A DNA stretch of 64,000 nucleotides from an uncultured Latescibacterota bacterium (lineage in GTDB: Bacteria; Latescibacterota; UBA2968), in the NCBI GenBank assembly GCA_951812755.1, contig OX638329.1:1411339-1475338 (forward strand), written 5' to 3'. Below the pieces are notes generated by a model, which was given only the letters and a program-made list of their open reading frames with translations, was not told where the DNA came from and ran no database searches. A program made the position numbers and the translations under genes. Below, piece after piece: positions 39,237 to 60,864 of this stretch; position 1 is the stretch's first letter; every line of letters starts with the position of its first letter.

Positions 39237-41219
39237 ATGGACCATTATTCACATTCACCAAAACGACCAATGTCTATAACCAACGACCTGCTCGTTTCCC
39301 CGGGCAAATATTGCAATTCGCTCACGGAATACGCCCGCTTCAAAACCCGCGAAGTCGATATCGGGGGCGTGCCACTCGGCGGCGACAATCCCATTCGCGT
39401 GCAGTCAATGACCACAACCGATACCATGGACACCGATGGCACGGTTGCCCAGTCCATCCGCATGATCCGCGCCGGATGTGAATACGTGCGCATAACAGCA
39501 CCCAGCCAAAACGAAGCCCGCAACCTCGAAAACATCCAAAAAAAACTCAGAGCCGCGGGCTACCACACCCCACTGATAGCCGATATTCACTACACCCCCA
39601 ATGCCGCTGAAATCGCCGCCCGAATTGTGGAAAAAGTGCGCGTGAATCCCGGCAATTATGCCGACAAAAAAAAATTCCAGATCATCGAATACACCGATGC
39701 ACAATACGCCGAAGAACTGCACCGCATCCGCGACAGATTCGCGCCACTGGTCAAAATCTGCAAAGAATACGGCACAGCCATGCGGATTGGCACCAACCAC
39801 GGATCGCTCTCAGACCGCATCATGAGCAGGTTTGGCGACACCCCACTCGGCATGGTCGAATCCGCACTCGAATTTGCGCGGATATGCAGTGACCTCGACT
39901 ATCACGACATCGTGTTTTCCATGAAAGCCAGCAATCCGCAAATTATGGTTCAAGCCTACCGCCTGCTCGTACACAAAATGATGGTCGAAGGCATGAACTA
40001 CCCGCTCCATCTGGGGGTCACAGAAGCCGGCGATGGCGAAGACGGACGCATCAAATCGGCCGTGGGCATAGGCGCGTTGCTCGAAGACGGCCTGGGCGAT
40101 ACCATTCGCGTCTCCCTCACCGAAGAACCCGAAGCTGAAATCCCCGTGGCGCAAACACTGGTCGCCCGCTATTGCAACCGAAGCGATCACGCCCCAATAC
40201 CGGAAATTCAAACACCTCATATCGATCCATTTTCGTACACGCGCCGCACAACGCGACAGGTTGAAAAAATCGGCAAACCGAGTGTCCCAATCGTCATTGC
40301 CACCCCACAGGGCACTATCACCCCCGAATCCCTGCAACCTTTTGGGTATTCGTATGACGCTGCACTCGACAAATGGCATATCGCCGATATGGCCGTTGAC
40401 TTTATTAACATCGGTGATCGCACCCTGGACTTTGAATTGCCGGGCACACTTGGCATCATTCAAAATGCCCGGGTTTGGTCGCCCACATCCGCCGCATACC
40501 CGATTTTTTCTGCAACTGCATACTTGCAAGCCAATCACACATCCGACCGCATCACCTTTATCTGTGCCGAACTCGCCGAACTCGATGCACCGCTTATCTG
40601 CGCGCTCAAGGCCGATCCTTATGCCGTGCTCGCCCTGCAAACCCACAACACCCACGCCATGCCCGAACTGCGCCGCGCATTCTGTCTGATTGCAGATCGA
40701 CATTGCGACATACCCGTAGTCATCCGCCGAACGTATAGCGCAAAAATGTACTCAGCCAATGACGCCTTCATGCTCTACGCCGCCACAGACTGTGGCGGAC
40801 TGCTCGTCGATGGCCTCGGCGATGGCTTGTGGCTCGAAGCATCCGATCAAATAGACGACCACACCCTCACCCGCACGGCCTTTGGCATCTTGCAAGCCAC
40901 GCGCACCCGCATATCCAAAACCGAATACATATCCTGCCCTTCGTGTGGTCGCACCCTGTTCGACCTGCAGGAAACCACCGCCCTGATTCGAAGCCACACC
41001 AACCACCTCAAAGGCGTCAAAATTGGCATTATGGGCTGCATTGTCAACGGCCCCGGTGAAATGGCCGACGCCGATTACGGTTATGTAGGCAGTGGTCCTG
41101 GCAAAATCACGCTCTACAAGGGCAAAGACATCGTCAAACGCAATATCCCCACAAAAGGTGCGGTTGACGAACTGATTGACCTGATACGCGCCGGTGGCGA
41201 TTGGGTTGAGCCAGCTTAA
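39237..41219 (+). CDS. ispG: (E)-4-hydroxy-3-methylbut-2-enyl-diphosphate synthase, large form
   Basis: Up to 660 residues, the long IspG/GcpE type found in Bacteroidota, Chlamydiota and plants, with an extra domain between the TIM barrel and the iron-sulfur domain. Barrel motifs: GGDNPIRVQSMTTTDTMDT, VRITAPSQ, DIHYTP, VRVNPGN. Iron-sulfur end: SCPSCGRTLFDLQ and GIMGCIVNGPGE with the cluster cysteines. It makes HMBPP in the MEP isoprenoid pathway. Starts at 39237 and 39270 are both possible; neither has a clear ribosome site. Confidence 0.93.
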   Translation: MDHYSHSPKRPMSITNDLLVSPGKYCNSLTEYARFKTREVDIGGVPLGGDNPIRVQSMTTTDTMDTDGTVAQSIRMIRAGCEYVRITAPSQNEARNLENIQKKLRAAGYHTPLIADIHYTPNAAEIAARIVEKVRVNPGNYADKKKFQIIEYTDAQYAEELHRIRDRFAPLVKICKEYGTAMRIGTNHGSLSDRIMSRFGDTPLGMVESALEFARICSDLDYHDIVFSMKASNPQIMVQAYRLLVHKMMVEGMNYPLHLGVTEAGDGEDGRIKSAVGIGALLEDGLGDTIRVSLTEEPEAEIPVAQTLVARYCNRSDHAPIPEIQTPHIDPFSYTRRTTRQVEKIGKPSVPIVIATPQGTITPESLQPFGYSYDAALDKWHIADMAVDFINIGDRTLDFELPGTLGIIQNARVWSPTSAAYPIFSATAYLQANHTSDRITFICAELAELDAPLICALKADPYAVLALQTHNTHAMPELRRAFCLIADRHCDIPVVIRRTYSAKMYSANDAFMLYAATDCGGLLVDGLGDGLWLEASDQIDDHTLTRTAFGILQATRTRISKTEYISCPSCGRTLFDLQETTALIRSHTNHLKGVKIGIMGCIVNGPGEMADADYGYVGSGPGKITLYKGKDIVKRNIPTKGAVDELIDLIRAGGDWVEPA

Positions 41220-43798: not shown

Positions 43799-45592
43799 TT
43801 ACAAAGCGTCGTAGAGGTTTTCAATCTGCTGTTCCACCAGACGCAATCGACGGCTGAGGCGGTCTCCTCGTTTGAAATCTCGTTTTTCAAAAGCCGATGC
43901 CATCCCCCGTTCCAGTCGCAATTTCTCATCTTCCAACGCCTCGATTTGTTTTTCAACCTCAGAATGGATCTCTCCATCCGGCGTTTTACTCGATCTCCAT
44001 TTTGCCCAAAAATCTGAGAAATTGCCTGCATGGGATTCCAAATTCATGTCGCGCACTTCAATCACCCGCTCGGCAATTTTATCGAGGAAATAGCGATCGT
44101 GTGAAATCACTATGAGTGTACCGTCAAAGTCTTCAAGAGCATCTTCCACCTGCTCGCGGGATGCGATATCCAGATGATTGGTTGGCTCATCCAATAGCAA
44201 CATATTGGCCCCAGACACCATCAAACAGGCCAACTGAACGCGGCTTTTTTCCCCACCGCTTAAATTGCCGACTTTTTTGTCCAGATCGCGCCATCCAAAT
44301 AAAAACCTGGACAGCACCCCACCTCCCTGATCGCGGTTCAACTCACCCGACAAACAGATCTCTTCGAGAATGGTTCGGTTGTCATTTAAGGTCTCGTGTT
44401 CTTGTGCGTAATATCCCAATTGAATGCGTGGACCGATTCGCATTGTGGGATGTTCCCAGGCACCCTCGGCAACAATATCCTTAAAGAGCATAGATTTGCC
44501 TGTCCCATTATCCCCGACCAATCCGACGCGCTCGCCCGATTGCACCAGCAAATCAACATCTCGAAACAGCGTGCGCTTACCTGCCTTGCACCCGTACTTT
44601 CGCAACTCTAAGGCAATTTTTCCACTGCCCTGAATTGCGCCAAATGCGGGATCAATGCGCTGGCGATCCATGACTGGTCGATGGATCCGGTCTATGCGGT
44701 CCAACATTTTTCCCTTGTTTCTCGCACGCCGTATATTTTTTTCTCCACCCCACAATTCAAAACGCTTGATCATATCCTCCAGTCGTTGAATTTCCTTCTG
44801 CTGGTTGTCGTATGCCGCTTTCTGCAAGAGCAACTGACGCATTTTTTCTGCGCGGTAGGCCGAATAATTGCCCATATATGTGCTGGCTTTTCCATCTTCA
44901 ACTTCCACGGTCCGATTCACAACCCGGTCCAGCATATAGCGATCGTGTGATACCAGAATCACCGTTCGATCCAAATTTTGCAAAAATGCCTCTAACCAGG
45001 CCAATCCTTCAAAATCGAGGTGATTGCCCGGTTCGTCCAGCAACAGCAAGTCTGGCTCACCCAGCAGAATTTTTGCCAATCCCACCAGATTCTTTTCGCC
45101 GCCACTCAATACATCGACAGATTGGTCCCGCCAGGCCCCTATACCCAGTCCATCTATGACCGCATCAATTTTTGCCTGACGAGCATAGCCATCTGCCCGC
45201 TCAAAAGCCTCCTGTAAGCGCCCATACTGTTCCATCACCGCGTTAATCTGATCGGACGCACCATTTGCCATCTGCGCTTCCAGTTTGCGCATTTTGCGTT
45301 GCATCTGATTGACTGCTTCAAATACCGAGGCGATTTCTTCTTCAACACGCCTTCCCGCCTGAAATTTCAGGTGCTGCGCGAGATACCCCGTAGATATGCC
45401 TTTTACCTTACTCACAGTGCCAGAAACGGGTGTTTCAATACCTGCAATCAGTTTCAAAATGGTGGTCTTTCCACAGCCATTGTCACCAATTAAACCAACC
45501 TTTTCGCCTTTATTGATCTTAAAAGACACATCGATCAGCACATCCTGAGCACCGTAAGCCATTGCAATATGATGTAATTCCAAAATGGTCAT
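43799..45592 (-). CDS. ABC-F family ATPase
   Basis: A 597-residue soluble protein with two ABC domains and no membrane segment. Domain 1: Walker A GDNGCGKT (36-43), signature LSGGE (162-166), Walker B LLLLDEPGNHLD, where Gly189 replaces the Thr usual in ABC-F. Domain 2: GDNGTGKS, LSGGEKSR, LLLLDEPTNHLD. An interdomain linker near 235-310 and a coiled C-terminal tail follow. ABC-F proteins act on ribosomes, in translation rescue or antibiotic protection. ATG at 45592 is preferred over a TTG 15 bases earlier. A hairpin and T-tract lie just upstream. Confidence 0.88.
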   Translation of the reverse strand: MTILELHHIAMAYGAQDVLIDVSFKINKGEKVGLIGDNGCGKTTILKLIAGIETPVSGTVSKVKGISTGYLAQHLKFQAGRRVEEEIASVFEAVNQMQRKMRKLEAQMANGASDQINAVMEQYGRLQEAFERADGYARQAKIDAVIDGLGIGAWRDQSVDVLSGGEKNLVGLAKILLGEPDLLLLDEPGNHLDFEGLAWLEAFLQNLDRTVILVSHDRYMLDRVVNRTVEVEDGKASTYMGNYSAYRAEKMRQLLLQKAAYDNQQKEIQRLEDMIKRFELWGGEKNIRRARNKGKMLDRIDRIHRPVMDRQRIDPAFGAIQGSGKIALELRKYGCKAGKRTLFRDVDLLVQSGERVGLVGDNGTGKSMLFKDIVAEGAWEHPTMRIGPRIQLGYYAQEHETLNDNRTILEEICLSGELNRDQGGGVLSRFLFGWRDLDKKVGNLSGGEKSRVQLACLMVSGANMLLLDEPTNHLDIASREQVEDALEDFDGTLIVISHDRYFLDKIAERVIEVRDMNLESHAGNFSDFWAKWRSSKTPDGEIHSEVEKQIEALEDEKLRLERGMASAFEKRDFKRGDRLSRRLRLVEQQIENLYDAL

Positions 45593-45605
45593 TGGTCGCA
45601 CTTTC

Positions 45606-45648
45606 AAAAAAAAAAAAAGGCTGTGGTCACAATGTGTGCCACAGCCTT
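45606..45648 (-). terminator. Attenuator-like terminator in the ABC-F leader
   Basis: Read on the minus strand, AAGGCTGTGG and CCACAGCCTT pair around a 12-base loop and are followed by 11-13 T residues, ending about 13 bases before the ABC-F start. Its position just before the start codon suggests conditional termination rather than the end of another gene. Confidence 0.7.
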
Positions 45649-45759
45649 AGAAAACAAACTACGATCAAGCCTAAACCGTTCATTTTATTTGTTTTATGAA
45701 CGAATCAGGCAAAGTCTCTTCTTTCACGCATAGACACACCTATCCCCTAAAACCCGTCT

Positions 45760-45837
45760 TCAGGACGCGGCTTTTCTCACCAGTAAAACGATCATAGTAT
45801 GGTGAGCGATAGATGTATGCGTGTCAGAGGATGTCAT
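45760..45837 (-). CDS. Possible 25-residue leader peptide of the ABC-F gene
   Basis: An ATG frame (MTSSDTHTSIAHH start, MIVLLVRKAAS end) on the ABC-F leader strand with AAAGG about nine bases upstream and a TTGACA box at 45892-45897; the -10 (TAGCTT) is weak. Its codons overlap a foldable region: CACGCATA/TATGCGTG arms (45829 back to 45722 region) and CTCACCA/TGGTGAG inside. Whether it is translated is untested. Confidence 0.4.
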   Translation of the reverse strand: MTSSDTHTSIAHHTMIVLLVRKAAS

Positions 45838-45903
45838 TAGATTAAACCTTTAAAGGTGATATTTTTTAAAGCTACATATATAAACAGCCAATGTCAAGTT
45901 TTC

Positions 45904-47289
45904 TCAAATGTGAATCGCCTCATTTTCCACATTCAACGCCGCCTCCTTCAGTGCCTCAGGAAGTGTGGGATGCGCGTGCATTGTTCGCGCAATATCCTCT
46001 GCACTCGCAGAAAATTCCATTGCCAGAACCCCTTCCGCGAGCATATCGGACGCACGGGCGGCCAAAATGTGAATACCCATAACGCGATCCGTCTTCTCGT
46101 GGGCAATAATCTTCACCTCTCCATCCACCGCCTGTAGCGTATGCGCGCGACCATTGGCAGCTATTGGAAACTTGCCCACCTTGTAGGGAATGTTATCCGC
46201 CACAACCTGCTCCTCTGTCAGCCCCACCGATGCCAGTTCTGGATGCGTGTACACCACATTGGGAATCGCGCCATAATTCACATGCCCCGCCTTTCCCACC
46301 ATACATTCCACCGCAGCCACCCCCTCTTCCTCTGCCTTGTGCGCCAGCATCGGACCGGGAATCACATCGCCAATCGCATAGACACCGGACAAATTTGACT
46401 CAAACGCCTCATTGACCAGAACGCGCCCTTTGTCATCCATCTCCAATCCCACATCTTCGCCACCCAGCCCATCGGTATTTGGTTTTCGCCCAACAGCGAC
46501 CAACAACCGGTCACACGTCTCAGAAGTCGTCTCATCGCCCTGTGCGAGAGTCACAACCACTTTGCCATCGCGAACCTCGGCCGACTCCGCGCGCGTCTCA
46601 AACGAAAACTTCAGCCCCTGTTTTTCCAGCACCTTCTGCAAACCGAGGGACAATTCTCGGTCCATCGTCGGCGTAATCCCATCCAAAAATTCAACCACAT
46701 GCACCTCTGCACCCAGGCGATGCCACACCGACCCCAGCTCGAGACCGATCGCACCCGCGCCAATAACAATCATCTTTTCGGGCACCTCGTCCAGTGCCAA
46801 CGCCTCGGTCGAACTGATCACATACTCGCCATCAAAAGACAAATTGGGCAACTCAATAGCAGAACTGCCCGTAGCGATCAAAATGCGTTCTGCCGAATAA
46901 ATATCCCCGCCGACATCGACCTTTCCATCGCCAGCCAACCGCCCCAGCCCCGAAATATGCGTCACCTTATTCTTCCGAAACAGACCGCGAATACCGCCCG
47001 TCATTCTTCGCACAATACTGGACTTGCGCTTCATCATACCCTTCAAATCCAGTTCCACACCACCGGTCTTCACACCGTGAATACCCAACGAAGACTCTGC
47101 CTGGTGAAACAACTCACTCGACTCCAAAAGGGCTTTACTCGGGATACAACCCACATTCAGACAGGTACCACCCAATGCCTGTTTCTCAACACATGCCACG
47201 CGCATGCCCAATTGCGCCGCCCGAATCGCAGCGACATACCCCCCCGGTCCAGCACCGATAACAATGAGATCGAATGTATTATCTGCCAC
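45904..47289 (-). CDS. lpd: Dihydrolipoyl dehydrogenase (E3)
   Basis: A 461-residue flavoprotein disulfide reductase. FAD loop VIGAGPGGYVAA (10-21), redox disulfide Cys43/Cys48 in GGTCLNVGCIPSK, NAD loop VIGAGAIGLELGSVW and the C-terminal HAHPTLPEALKEA with the catalytic His-Glu pair of the partner subunit. It reoxidises dihydrolipoyl groups of 2-oxoglutarate dehydrogenase and perhaps other complexes. Third gene of the sucA-sucB-lpd cluster in transcription order. Confidence 0.95.
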   Translation of the reverse strand: MADNTFDLIVIGAGPGGYVAAIRAAQLGMRVACVEKQALGGTCLNVGCIPSKALLESSELFHQAESSLGIHGVKTGGVELDLKGMMKRKSSIVRRMTGGIRGLFRKNKVTHISGLGRLAGDGKVDVGGDIYSAERILIATGSSAIELPNLSFDGEYVISSTEALALDEVPEKMIVIGAGAIGLELGSVWHRLGAEVHVVEFLDGITPTMDRELSLGLQKVLEKQGLKFSFETRAESAEVRDGKVVVTLAQGDETTSETCDRLLVAVGRKPNTDGLGGEDVGLEMDDKGRVLVNEAFESNLSGVYAIGDVIPGPMLAHKAEEEGVAAVECMVGKAGHVNYGAIPNVVYTHPELASVGLTEEQVVADNIPYKVGKFPIAANGRAHTLQAVDGEVKIIAHEKTDRVMGIHILAARASDMLAEGVLAMEFSASAEDIARTMHAHPTLPEALKEAALNVENEAIHI

Positions 47290-54881: not shown

Positions 54882-55943
54882 ATGAAACACATTACCCTCG
54901 GTATCATCCTCGCCTTTTCCCTCGCGGCCTGCAGCAGCGACGACAACCCCGTCGCACCAGAACCCGAACCCGGATATGATTTTTCACCCATCTTGACCGA
55001 CTTTTCCGACAAAACAGTTATCCCGACCTACAAAGACCTCGCCAACGTCGCCACAGAACTCCTCACCGCGGTGCAAAATCTCAAGAACAATCCCTCGACC
55101 GCTACGCTGGCAACAGCCCGTGCAAAATGGGTAGCCTCGCGTACTCCCTGGGAAAAAAGCGAGGGTTTTTTGTTCGGTCCCGTCGATTTTAGCGGCTTTG
55201 ACCCCGCGCTGGATTCCTGGCCAGTCAACCGCACGGATCTCGAAGGCGTTCTGGGCAGCAGCGATCCCCTGACCAAAACATCCGTAAACAACCTCGCCAA
55301 CGAACTCAAGGGATTTCACACCATTGAATTTTTGCTCTTTGACGAAGGCGGCAGCAAAACCATCGAAGACTTCACCCCGCGCCAATACGATTATTTGATC
55401 GCAGCAACAGAATTGCTCAAAGATGCGGCTGTATCTCTGCACACCAGTTGGATTGCCTCCGGCGAAAACTTCCGCGCACAGGTGGTCAATGCCGGCGCAG
55501 GGAGCAGTACTTACACCACGCAAAAAGCCGCTGTCCAGGAAATGGTCAACGGCATGATTGGCATTGCCGACGAAGTCGGAAACGGCAAAATTGCCGATCC
55601 CTTTACCGAGAAAGACACGCGCCTGGTGGAATCGCAATTCAGTTTTAACTCCCTCCTCGACTTTCAAGACAACATGCGCAGCATTCAAAATGTTTACCTG
55701 GGTGGGTACAATGTTGAAGCAGTGGGCCTCGATGAATTTATCAAAAGCAAAGACTCCGCCCTCGACCAGCGTTTCCAGGCTGAAATTCAGGCGGCCATCA
55801 CAGAAATTGGCAAAATATCCTTCCCATTCCGCGACGCCCTCACCACCGATGCAGCGCAAATAACAGCAGCGCAACAGGCCATTGCAACCGTGCAACAAAC
55901 ACTTGAGGGAAATATTATGCCTCTGGTATTAGCAGAACAATAA
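54882..55943 (+). CDS. Imelysin-family lipoprotein (M75-like)
   Basis: A 353-residue lipoprotein with lipobox LAAC (Cys17). The imelysin signature GxHxxE is present as GFHTIE (Gly144, His146, Glu149), with WEKSEGFLFGPVDFSGFDPALDSWP before it. Imelysin/EfeO-like proteins bind iron in the periplasm and are linked to iron uptake; the old peptidase label is doubtful. Between a porin and a di-haem protein on the same strand, an arrangement known from other imelysin loci. Confidence 0.88.
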   Translation: MKHITLGIILAFSLAACSSDDNPVAPEPEPGYDFSPILTDFSDKTVIPTYKDLANVATELLTAVQNLKNNPSTATLATARAKWVASRTPWEKSEGFLFGPVDFSGFDPALDSWPVNRTDLEGVLGSSDPLTKTSVNNLANELKGFHTIEFLLFDEGGSKTIEDFTPRQYDYLIAATELLKDAAVSLHTSWIASGENFRAQVVNAGAGSSTYTTQKAAVQEMVNGMIGIADEVGNGKIADPFTEKDTRLVESQFSFNSLLDFQDNMRSIQNVYLGGYNVEAVGLDEFIKSKDSALDQRFQAEIQAAITEIGKISFPFRDALTTDAAQITAAQQAIATVQQTLEGNIMPLVLAEQ

Positions 55944-60545: not shown

Positions 60546-60639
60546 AAAGCAACCACCGATAAACACAGATAAACACAGATGAAAGGCAACAGACCTGAGT
60601 TAGCGTTGAGTGGTACAGCTAAATGAGAGGAAACAAAAC

Positions 60640-60667
60640 AGGCCGCGATCTCAAGGGATCGCGGCCT
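60640..60667. terminator. Hairpin terminator between the VOC gene and the LRR gene
   Basis: AGGCCGCGATC / GATCGCGGCCT, an 11-base perfect stem with a six-base loop. On the minus strand it is followed by GTTTTGTTT, on the plus strand by AATTTCTT. Confidence 0.75.
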
Positions 60668-60672
60668 AATTT

Positions 60673-60864
60673 CTTAGAAGCTGTTTTAAAATTAATACCT
60701 GATGTTACGCATGTCAGGCGTTTTGTCATGCTGAGCGTAGCCGAAGCATCTTTTCCACCTGAGTTGGTAAGAGATTCTTCGACTCCGCTGCGCTCCGCTC
60801 AGAATGACAGAGCAATAGCGCATAGCTGAGAAGGGGCAAAATGAGTTTTAAAACAGTCTCTTAG
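60673..60864. mobile_element. MITE-like 192-bp element
   Basis: Terminal inverted repeats 60673-60691 and 60846-60864 match at 16 of 19 positions (core CTGTTTTAAAA). Inside, 60724-60809 is itself an imperfect palindrome from TGTCATGCTGAGCG to CGCTCAGAATGACA, a sequence type I recall as widespread in environmental bacterial genomes. No ORF. It accounts for most of the 60546-60919 gap; the left part also has a short ATAAACACAG duplication at 60560. Confidence 0.65.

Follow-up and report, generated by a model that had tools for sequence, protein, structure and literature searches.

The vmlR leader of Bacillus subtilis, which precedes an ABC-F gene, is reported to work by an anti-antiterminator/antiterminator/terminator arrangement. 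As described in PMC9226507, its inducer is known, its open reading frame (ORF), Met-Ile-Asn, lies inside the first stem, the anti-antiterminator, and the leader also comprises a middle hairpin, an intrinsic terminator and a structure hiding the start region. The cplR leader of Clostridioides difficile, according to PMC10201436, has an ORF of three codons (MRI) and combines transcription and translation attenuation; without drug, its transcription stops at the start codon of the ABC-F gene. For msrD, PMC10314930 describes transcription attenuation by a hydrophobic leader peptide, MYLIFM, on which stalling was demonstrated with erythromycin, and an intrinsic terminator before the ABC-F gene. Ribosome-mediated attenuation is also described, in PMC4191407, for the ABC transporter bmrCD of B. 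subtilis.

A leader of comparable arrangement lies before an ABC-F gene in the window, by which we mean the whole 64-kb stretch of DNA analysed here. It shares with vmlR the ORF within the first stem, the middle hairpin, the terminator, the structure over the start region and the ABC-F target; the likeness is one of arrangement, and the ORF has 25 codons, in contrast to the short vmlR ORF. As in cplR, the transcript is predicted to end at the ABC-F start codon and both levels of attenuation are proposed, whereas the two ORFs differ in length and the organisms are different. The hydrophobic peptide, the intrinsic terminator and the mode of control of msrD are likewise paralleled, but stalling in the window leader is only predicted. 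For the ABC-2 permease sites of the family described below we propose the mechanism of bmrCD. By analogy with these systems, the window leader likely works like a vmlR-type attenuator.

Elements of the lpd/ABC-F intergenic region

The whole leader is housed in the 311 bases between the end of lpd (45904) and the ABC-F ATG (45592), on the minus strand (Table 1). The TTGACA box and the 25-codon ORF with AAAGG upstream are present on the ABC-F strand, as originally predicted, and the terminator hairpin with its T-tract is confirmed: its arms lie at 45648-45639 and 45626-45617, the T run at 45618-45606, and 13 nt separate the last T from the ATG. The pairs CACGCATA (45823-45816) with TATGCGTG (45732-45725) and CTCACCA (45806-45800) with TGGTGAG (45782-45776), which had been read as competing stems, are instead nested in one minimum-energy structure, where P1 encloses CTCACCA/TGGTGAG and one further hairpin; the competing-stem model is thus ruled out.

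Table 1. Mapped elements of the locus, in window coordinates.
Feature	Position	Strand	Evidence
lpd, dihydrolipoyl dehydrogenase, upstream of the leader	45904..47289	minus	TIGR01350, 543.9 bits vs cut-off 408.8
Promoter: TTGACA 45897-45892, 17-nt spacer, TAGCTT 45874-45869	45869..45897	minus	same layout in 20/23 family leaders
Leader ORF, 25 codons, MTSSDTHTSIAHHTMIVLLVRKAAS; AAAGG at 45851-45847	45760..45837	minus	sequence; pairwise pS 0.054-0.161, pN 0.018-0.053, three species
P1, putative anti-antiterminator: leader-ORF codons from 45823 pair with block region down to 45725	45725..45823	minus	folding
Conserved block GGGGATAGGTGTGTCTA; GTGTGTC 45739-45733, putative antiterminator strand	45731..45747	minus	
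Hairpin H2, GCCTGATTCGTTCAT / ATGAACGGTTTAGGC; corresponds to the antiterminator stem GCCTA/TAGGC in relatives	45669..45710	minus	
Intrinsic terminator, AAGGCTGTGG / CCACAGCCTT + 13 T; GGCACAC 45640-45634, putative antiterminator target	45606..45648	minus	
P4, spacer paired with start-codon region; ends approximate	45595..45670	minus	3 variable pairs, 11/12 cells still paired
ABC-F ATPase, 597 aa, start ATG 45592	43799..45592	minus	NF000355, 434.6 bits vs cut-off 380

The -10 element matches the consensus at 3 of 6 positions and is weak, which is why a promoter scan of the window did not list this promoter; a terminator scan of the window did not list the leader hairpin. The pattern TTGAC-N16-18-TANNNT is found upstream in 20 of 23 family leaders, failing in those of G036, G004 and G012, with about 0.03 occurrences expected per 260-nt region. 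The minimum-energy fold of the leader has z = -6.27, and none of 200 shuffles is equally stable.

Relative to fourfold sites in the ABC-F gene, the leader evolves at roughly half the rate or below, which is a sign of constraint. Compared with the window, 18/303 leader sites differ in G002, 16/304 in G003 and 8/187 in G009, against 35/242, 26/237 and 27/248 fourfold sites, respectively. The terminator shows 0-1 of 36 differences among four species, and the 19 bases preceding the ATG are nearly unchanged within the genus; the spacer (45649-45671) is the fast part. Of the three variable pairs in H2, one has changes at both positions and another is broken in a single one of the four species. In the leader ORF, pS exceeds pN in all three window-genus pairs, with just 3 to 6 changes per pair.

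Two other features of the window were recorded. ARAGORN places a 99-nt tRNA-Asp at 54949-55047 (minus), which Rfam does not confirm at gathering score, and a long-form IspG homologue (660 aa) lies at 39237-41219 (plus), its best model being PRK02048 with 774 bits, below the cut-off of 886.

Distribution of the leader in the genus and the phylum

A protein search of 11 genus genomes, the window's own included, in which the gene was called at E <= 1e-150, found the ABC-F gene in six. Lack of conservation in relatives had been named beforehand as grounds for rejecting the attenuator, and the outcome is mixed: the leader is kept in four of the six gene carriers (G000, G002, G003 and G009, the window's own among them; in G009 a run of N covers the ORF) and is absent in two. 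In these two, G001 and G005, the ABC-F ATG follows the lpd stop by 6 nt, and both congeners are read as having lost exactly the leader. On the lpd tree G001 groups with the leader-bearing G003 (support 0.95); G005 and G006 group together (0.995), with G002 beside them. Under vertical inheritance of the sites, this placement implies at least two losses of the leader. Three further genomes (G004, G006 and G007) carry neither leader nor ABC-F gene, lpd being followed by a hairpin and an HU/IHF-like gene; at the lpd site the G010 sequence runs out at a contig edge, and other DNA takes this place in G008. At the lpd locus the leader is never seen without the ABC-F gene: the two are present or absent together, or the leader alone is lost.

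In other genera and families, the regions upstream of the orthologues (G013, G019, G021, G026, G031 and G039) have a promoter, a short ORF, a GGGGAGAAGTGTGCCCATG-like block and one or two terminators. A model built from these six leaders (R1) found further sites, including one in the window's own genome before a methyltransferase gene. A covariance model of 15 leaders, none of them an ABC-F leader of the window's genus (R2), was run on 386 genomes and matched in 24 at E <= 0.001, of which 22 are among the 64 of the phylum and two among the 322 outside it. The latter two (G142 and G267, E ~5e-4 each among the 386 genomes) have no clear block and were taken as chance matches. R2 gives the window leader 36.6 bits, its best match in the window, and E = 3.9e-5 in the 6.5-Mb genome; the second-best match in the window (60635-60779, minus, 18.4 bits) is probably just a terminator-like hairpin. 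With the terminator left out (R3), 20 sites were found in 19 of the 64 phylum genomes, all of them leaders already found; the window leader scores 24.4 bits (E 0.004 for 64 kb) and is not among the genome-wide matches at E <= 0.01, while its orthologues in G003, G002 and G009 have genome E values of 0.0015, 0.0031 and 0.0087.

RNAalifold on the 15 leaders recovers the terminator, 5 of whose 9 pairs have changes on both sides, so that the terminator covaries across lineages. It also recovers a small hairpin within the block, GGG-N9-CCC; the outer pair of this hairpin is GC in seven leaders, AU in six and unpaired in two. In the window 12 nt separate the end of the leader ORF from the block, whereas in relatives the ORF continues through the block. 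A leader peptide conserved across lineages was rejected, the block being read in three different frames, and we therefore claim no common peptide. Judged by these sequence comparisons, the window leader is a member of a leader family conserved across the phylum. Neither the window leader nor any of ten leader loci scores at the gathering level of any of the 4227 Rfam families, the best weak match, SQ2397, lying far too low to be a relative (25.8 against a cut-off of 100), nor was the family found in the literature searched. So far as these searches reached, both the family and its occurrence before unrelated genes are new; the kind of attenuator is already known.

The 24 phylum sites found with R2 precede diverse genes. 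ABC-F genes stand at 12 (in G036 the gene is in two frames, and in G030 it is cut by the contig end), and one more site, L151 in G012, is followed by a 79-residue relic of an ABC-F linker (E 2e-14), a decayed copy. The same methyltransferase is downstream at three sites (G000, G004 and G007), ABC-2 permeases at three (G041, G042 and G027), CBM9/DUF5916 proteins at three (G047, G055 and G061) and B12/radical SAM proteins at two (G047 and G063), where the gene start is several hundred bases on; five of the 24 sites thus precede genes with no obvious link to resistance. Most family sites away from the lpd locus sit just 5' of a gene.

Several of these sites have features of their own. The second family leader of the window's genome (L146, C1:4496363-4496478, minus), whose ORF reads MNDSSKPSVAFFLTTFLGWVFTLIFIQRSFRGDVCPGVSRS, precedes a 296-aa class I methyltransferase gene flanked by ORFs that by eye resemble phytanoyl-CoA dioxygenases. 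Repeated dioxygenase-like genes also adjoin the methyltransferase leaders of G004 (L145), which has no recognisable promoter, and of G007 (L150), which keeps its terminators and in which no ORF or block was seen. L147, L149 and L152 (G041, G042 and G027) precede a pair of ABC-2 permeases (PF06182), and the C-terminal half of their leader ORF is similar to the ORF of the f4 ABC-F leaders. The sites before CBM9/DUF5916 or B12/radical SAM genes (L148, L162, L170, L175 and L168, in G047, G055, G061 and G063) mostly have a AAAGGAGGTG-like ribosome-binding site, and their gene contexts are unexplained as a drug response.

The predicted antitermination switch and its controls

Folding suggests the following choice between structures, similar to that of vmlR. 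RNA polymerase would start near 45862. With no stalled ribosome on the leader ORF, the ORF codons would pair with the conserved block to form P1, the block would be kept from the terminator and transcription would end just before the ABC-F start codon. A ribosome lingering on the leader ORF would prevent P1, and the block sequence GUGUGUC could then pair with GGCACAC in the 5' arm of the terminator, around H2, giving read-through. P4 may limit translation of the read-through RNA, since it could hide the ribosome-binding site.

Partition functions for the window agree with this choice in part. For the whole 5' end, P(P1) is 0.90 and P(AT) 0.00; with the 5' arm of P1 covered and the 3' arm of the terminator not yet made, P(AT) is 0.90-0.95; with that 3' arm present, the terminator is at 1.00 in every case. 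The terminator always wins at equilibrium and the switch must therefore be kinetic. Covering the ORF has the same computed effect in G002, G003, G013, G000MT and G041 and partly so in G027 and G055; in G019 and G021 the antiterminator forms either way, and in G030 and G026 a block-to-terminator antiterminator does not form. When folding is stopped before the 3' arm of the terminator, the ORF-stop region pairs with the 5' arm of the first terminator in G013, G000MT, G004, G041, G042, G027, G047, G055 and G063 and partially in G021, while G019 and the f4 leaders fold otherwise.

A simple overlap between H2 and the terminator, as in G013 and G041, was rejected for the window, where H2 does not overlap the AAGGCTGTGG hairpin; pairing of the block with the terminator was for this reason examined instead. 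In a survey of 20 leaders, the block pairs most strongly, among downstream stretches, with the 5' arm of the last terminator in G021, G013, G004MT, G000MT, G041, G042, G027, G055 and the four leaders of the window's genus, and in G030 and G031, with one terminator each, that terminator is the top partner. The arm is a close second in G019, and the top stretch of G061 begins within the arm. The block does not take the arm as its partner in G047b, G063 and G026, and G047 is ambiguous. Own block/arm pairs are stronger than pairs made across lineages, 205 of 20000 permutations being as good (eight representatives).

Controls on single leaders are uneven. With dinucleotide-shuffled blocks, single-leader tests over the eight representatives gave 11 to 353 of 1000 shuffles as good. 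Among 100 shuffled blocks, the observed pairing was matched by 0 in G013, 0 in G019, 1 in G021 and 2 in G000MT, which pass this control, by 13 in G041, 29 in G027 and 79 in G055, and by 47 in G000, 24 in G002 and 18 in G003; the block shuffle control does not support block-terminator pairing for the window alone (47/100). For the window, 69 of 200 shuffled upstreams reached the P1 pair count but just 2 of 200 its energy, the upstream half being more stable than 198 of the 200 shuffles. Covariation among the four close genus sequences does not go beyond shuffles (253/500); in the same sequences, changes in the spacer leave 11 of 12 variable P4 cells paired.

Taken together, the conserved leader family, the promoter, the leader ORF, the terminator and the predicted structural choice support the attenuation claimed at the outset. 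This is a real, constrained regulatory leader and most likely a ribosome-responsive attenuator; more specifically, we consider it probable that it is a cis-acting transcription attenuator of the ABC-F gene. Against this explanation stand the unremarkable block shuffles and P1 pair counts, the lack of covariation, the leaderless G001 and G005, the ORF that ends short of the block in the window, its shifting frame, the terminator that wins at equilibrium, and G030 and G026 without block-terminator pairing.

The ABC-F protein and the signal proposed for the leader

The ABC-F protein has two ATPase domains (PF00005 twice) joined by a linker (PF12848, ABC_tran_Xtn, at 229-311). It passes NF000355, the generic NCBIfam model for ribosomal protection-like ABC-F proteins. 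No named resistance family reaches its curated cut-off: Vga scores 294 of 725, Msr 277 of 680, OptrA 296 of 1450, and the others are likewise far below. Among solved chains, those of EttA come nearest and PoxtA ranks lower, and a search with an ABC-F alignment returned general ABC-F genes only (32-40% identity) and no near relatives. These scores do not show the drug-inducible ribosome-protection factor originally suggested, nor do the five family sites without an obvious resistance link; a resistance role for the protein is possible.

The EttA neighbours and the missing resistance model raise the idea that the protein is a housekeeping-type, EttA-like translation factor that regulates itself, the attenuator reporting its activity on stalled ribosomes. 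This is compatible with an attenuator and we hold it to be rather doubtful, since the same genome already has a clear EttA (L003, 886 bits vs a cut-off of 806.75), the protein meets the generic protection-like model, and the gene is absent at an intact lpd site in three of the 11 genus genomes (G004, G006 and G007), hence dispensable. A paralogue in the same genome, L002, also passes NF000355 and no named resistance family.

It seems unlikely that a true attenuator at this locus answers a signal other than drug-stalled ribosomes, be it the general translation state, a nutrient sensed through codons or an RNA-binding factor on the block. Conservation of the block as RNA while the peptide frame shifts, and the sites before CBM9/DUF5916 and radical SAM genes, would suit such a signal; against it, ABC-F genes (12/24) and ABC-2 permeases (3/24) better fit ribosome or drug stress, and the leader ORF, on reading its sequence, contains no run of one regulatory codon.

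That the hairpin is simply the terminator of an upstream operon ending with lpd, with the ABC-F gene on low constant read-through and the rest incidental, is improbable. In its favour, no other terminator is seen between lpd and the hairpin, and at lpd loci that lack the ABC-F gene the hairpin at the end of lpd is shared with the HU/IHF-like gene; this reading, however, leaves without a role the promoter, the leader ORF and the block, all conserved in other families before unrelated genes, and the constraint on the leader counts against it. A free-standing small RNA with its 3' end at the terminator, unrelated to the downstream gene, would account for the promoter, the terminator and the strong structure, and is very improbable given that the leader never occurs without ABC-F at the lpd locus and that most sites elsewhere immediately precede a gene.

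Returning to the ribosome-responsive attenuator, we tentatively propose, as a possibility for the phylum as a whole, that one homologous attenuator family has been reused as a translation-stress module before unrelated genes (ABC-F, methyltransferase, ABC-2 permeases, surface and radical SAM proteins). A single RNA block would serve as antiterminator for one or two tandem terminators, peptide and frame would drift, and some lineages would have cut out exactly the leader and so arrived at constitutive expression. If this is true, the phylum has a common regulatory RNA marking genes that answer ribosome stress, which could be used to find such genes, and the natural leader deletions would be a ready comparison of attenuated and constitutive states.
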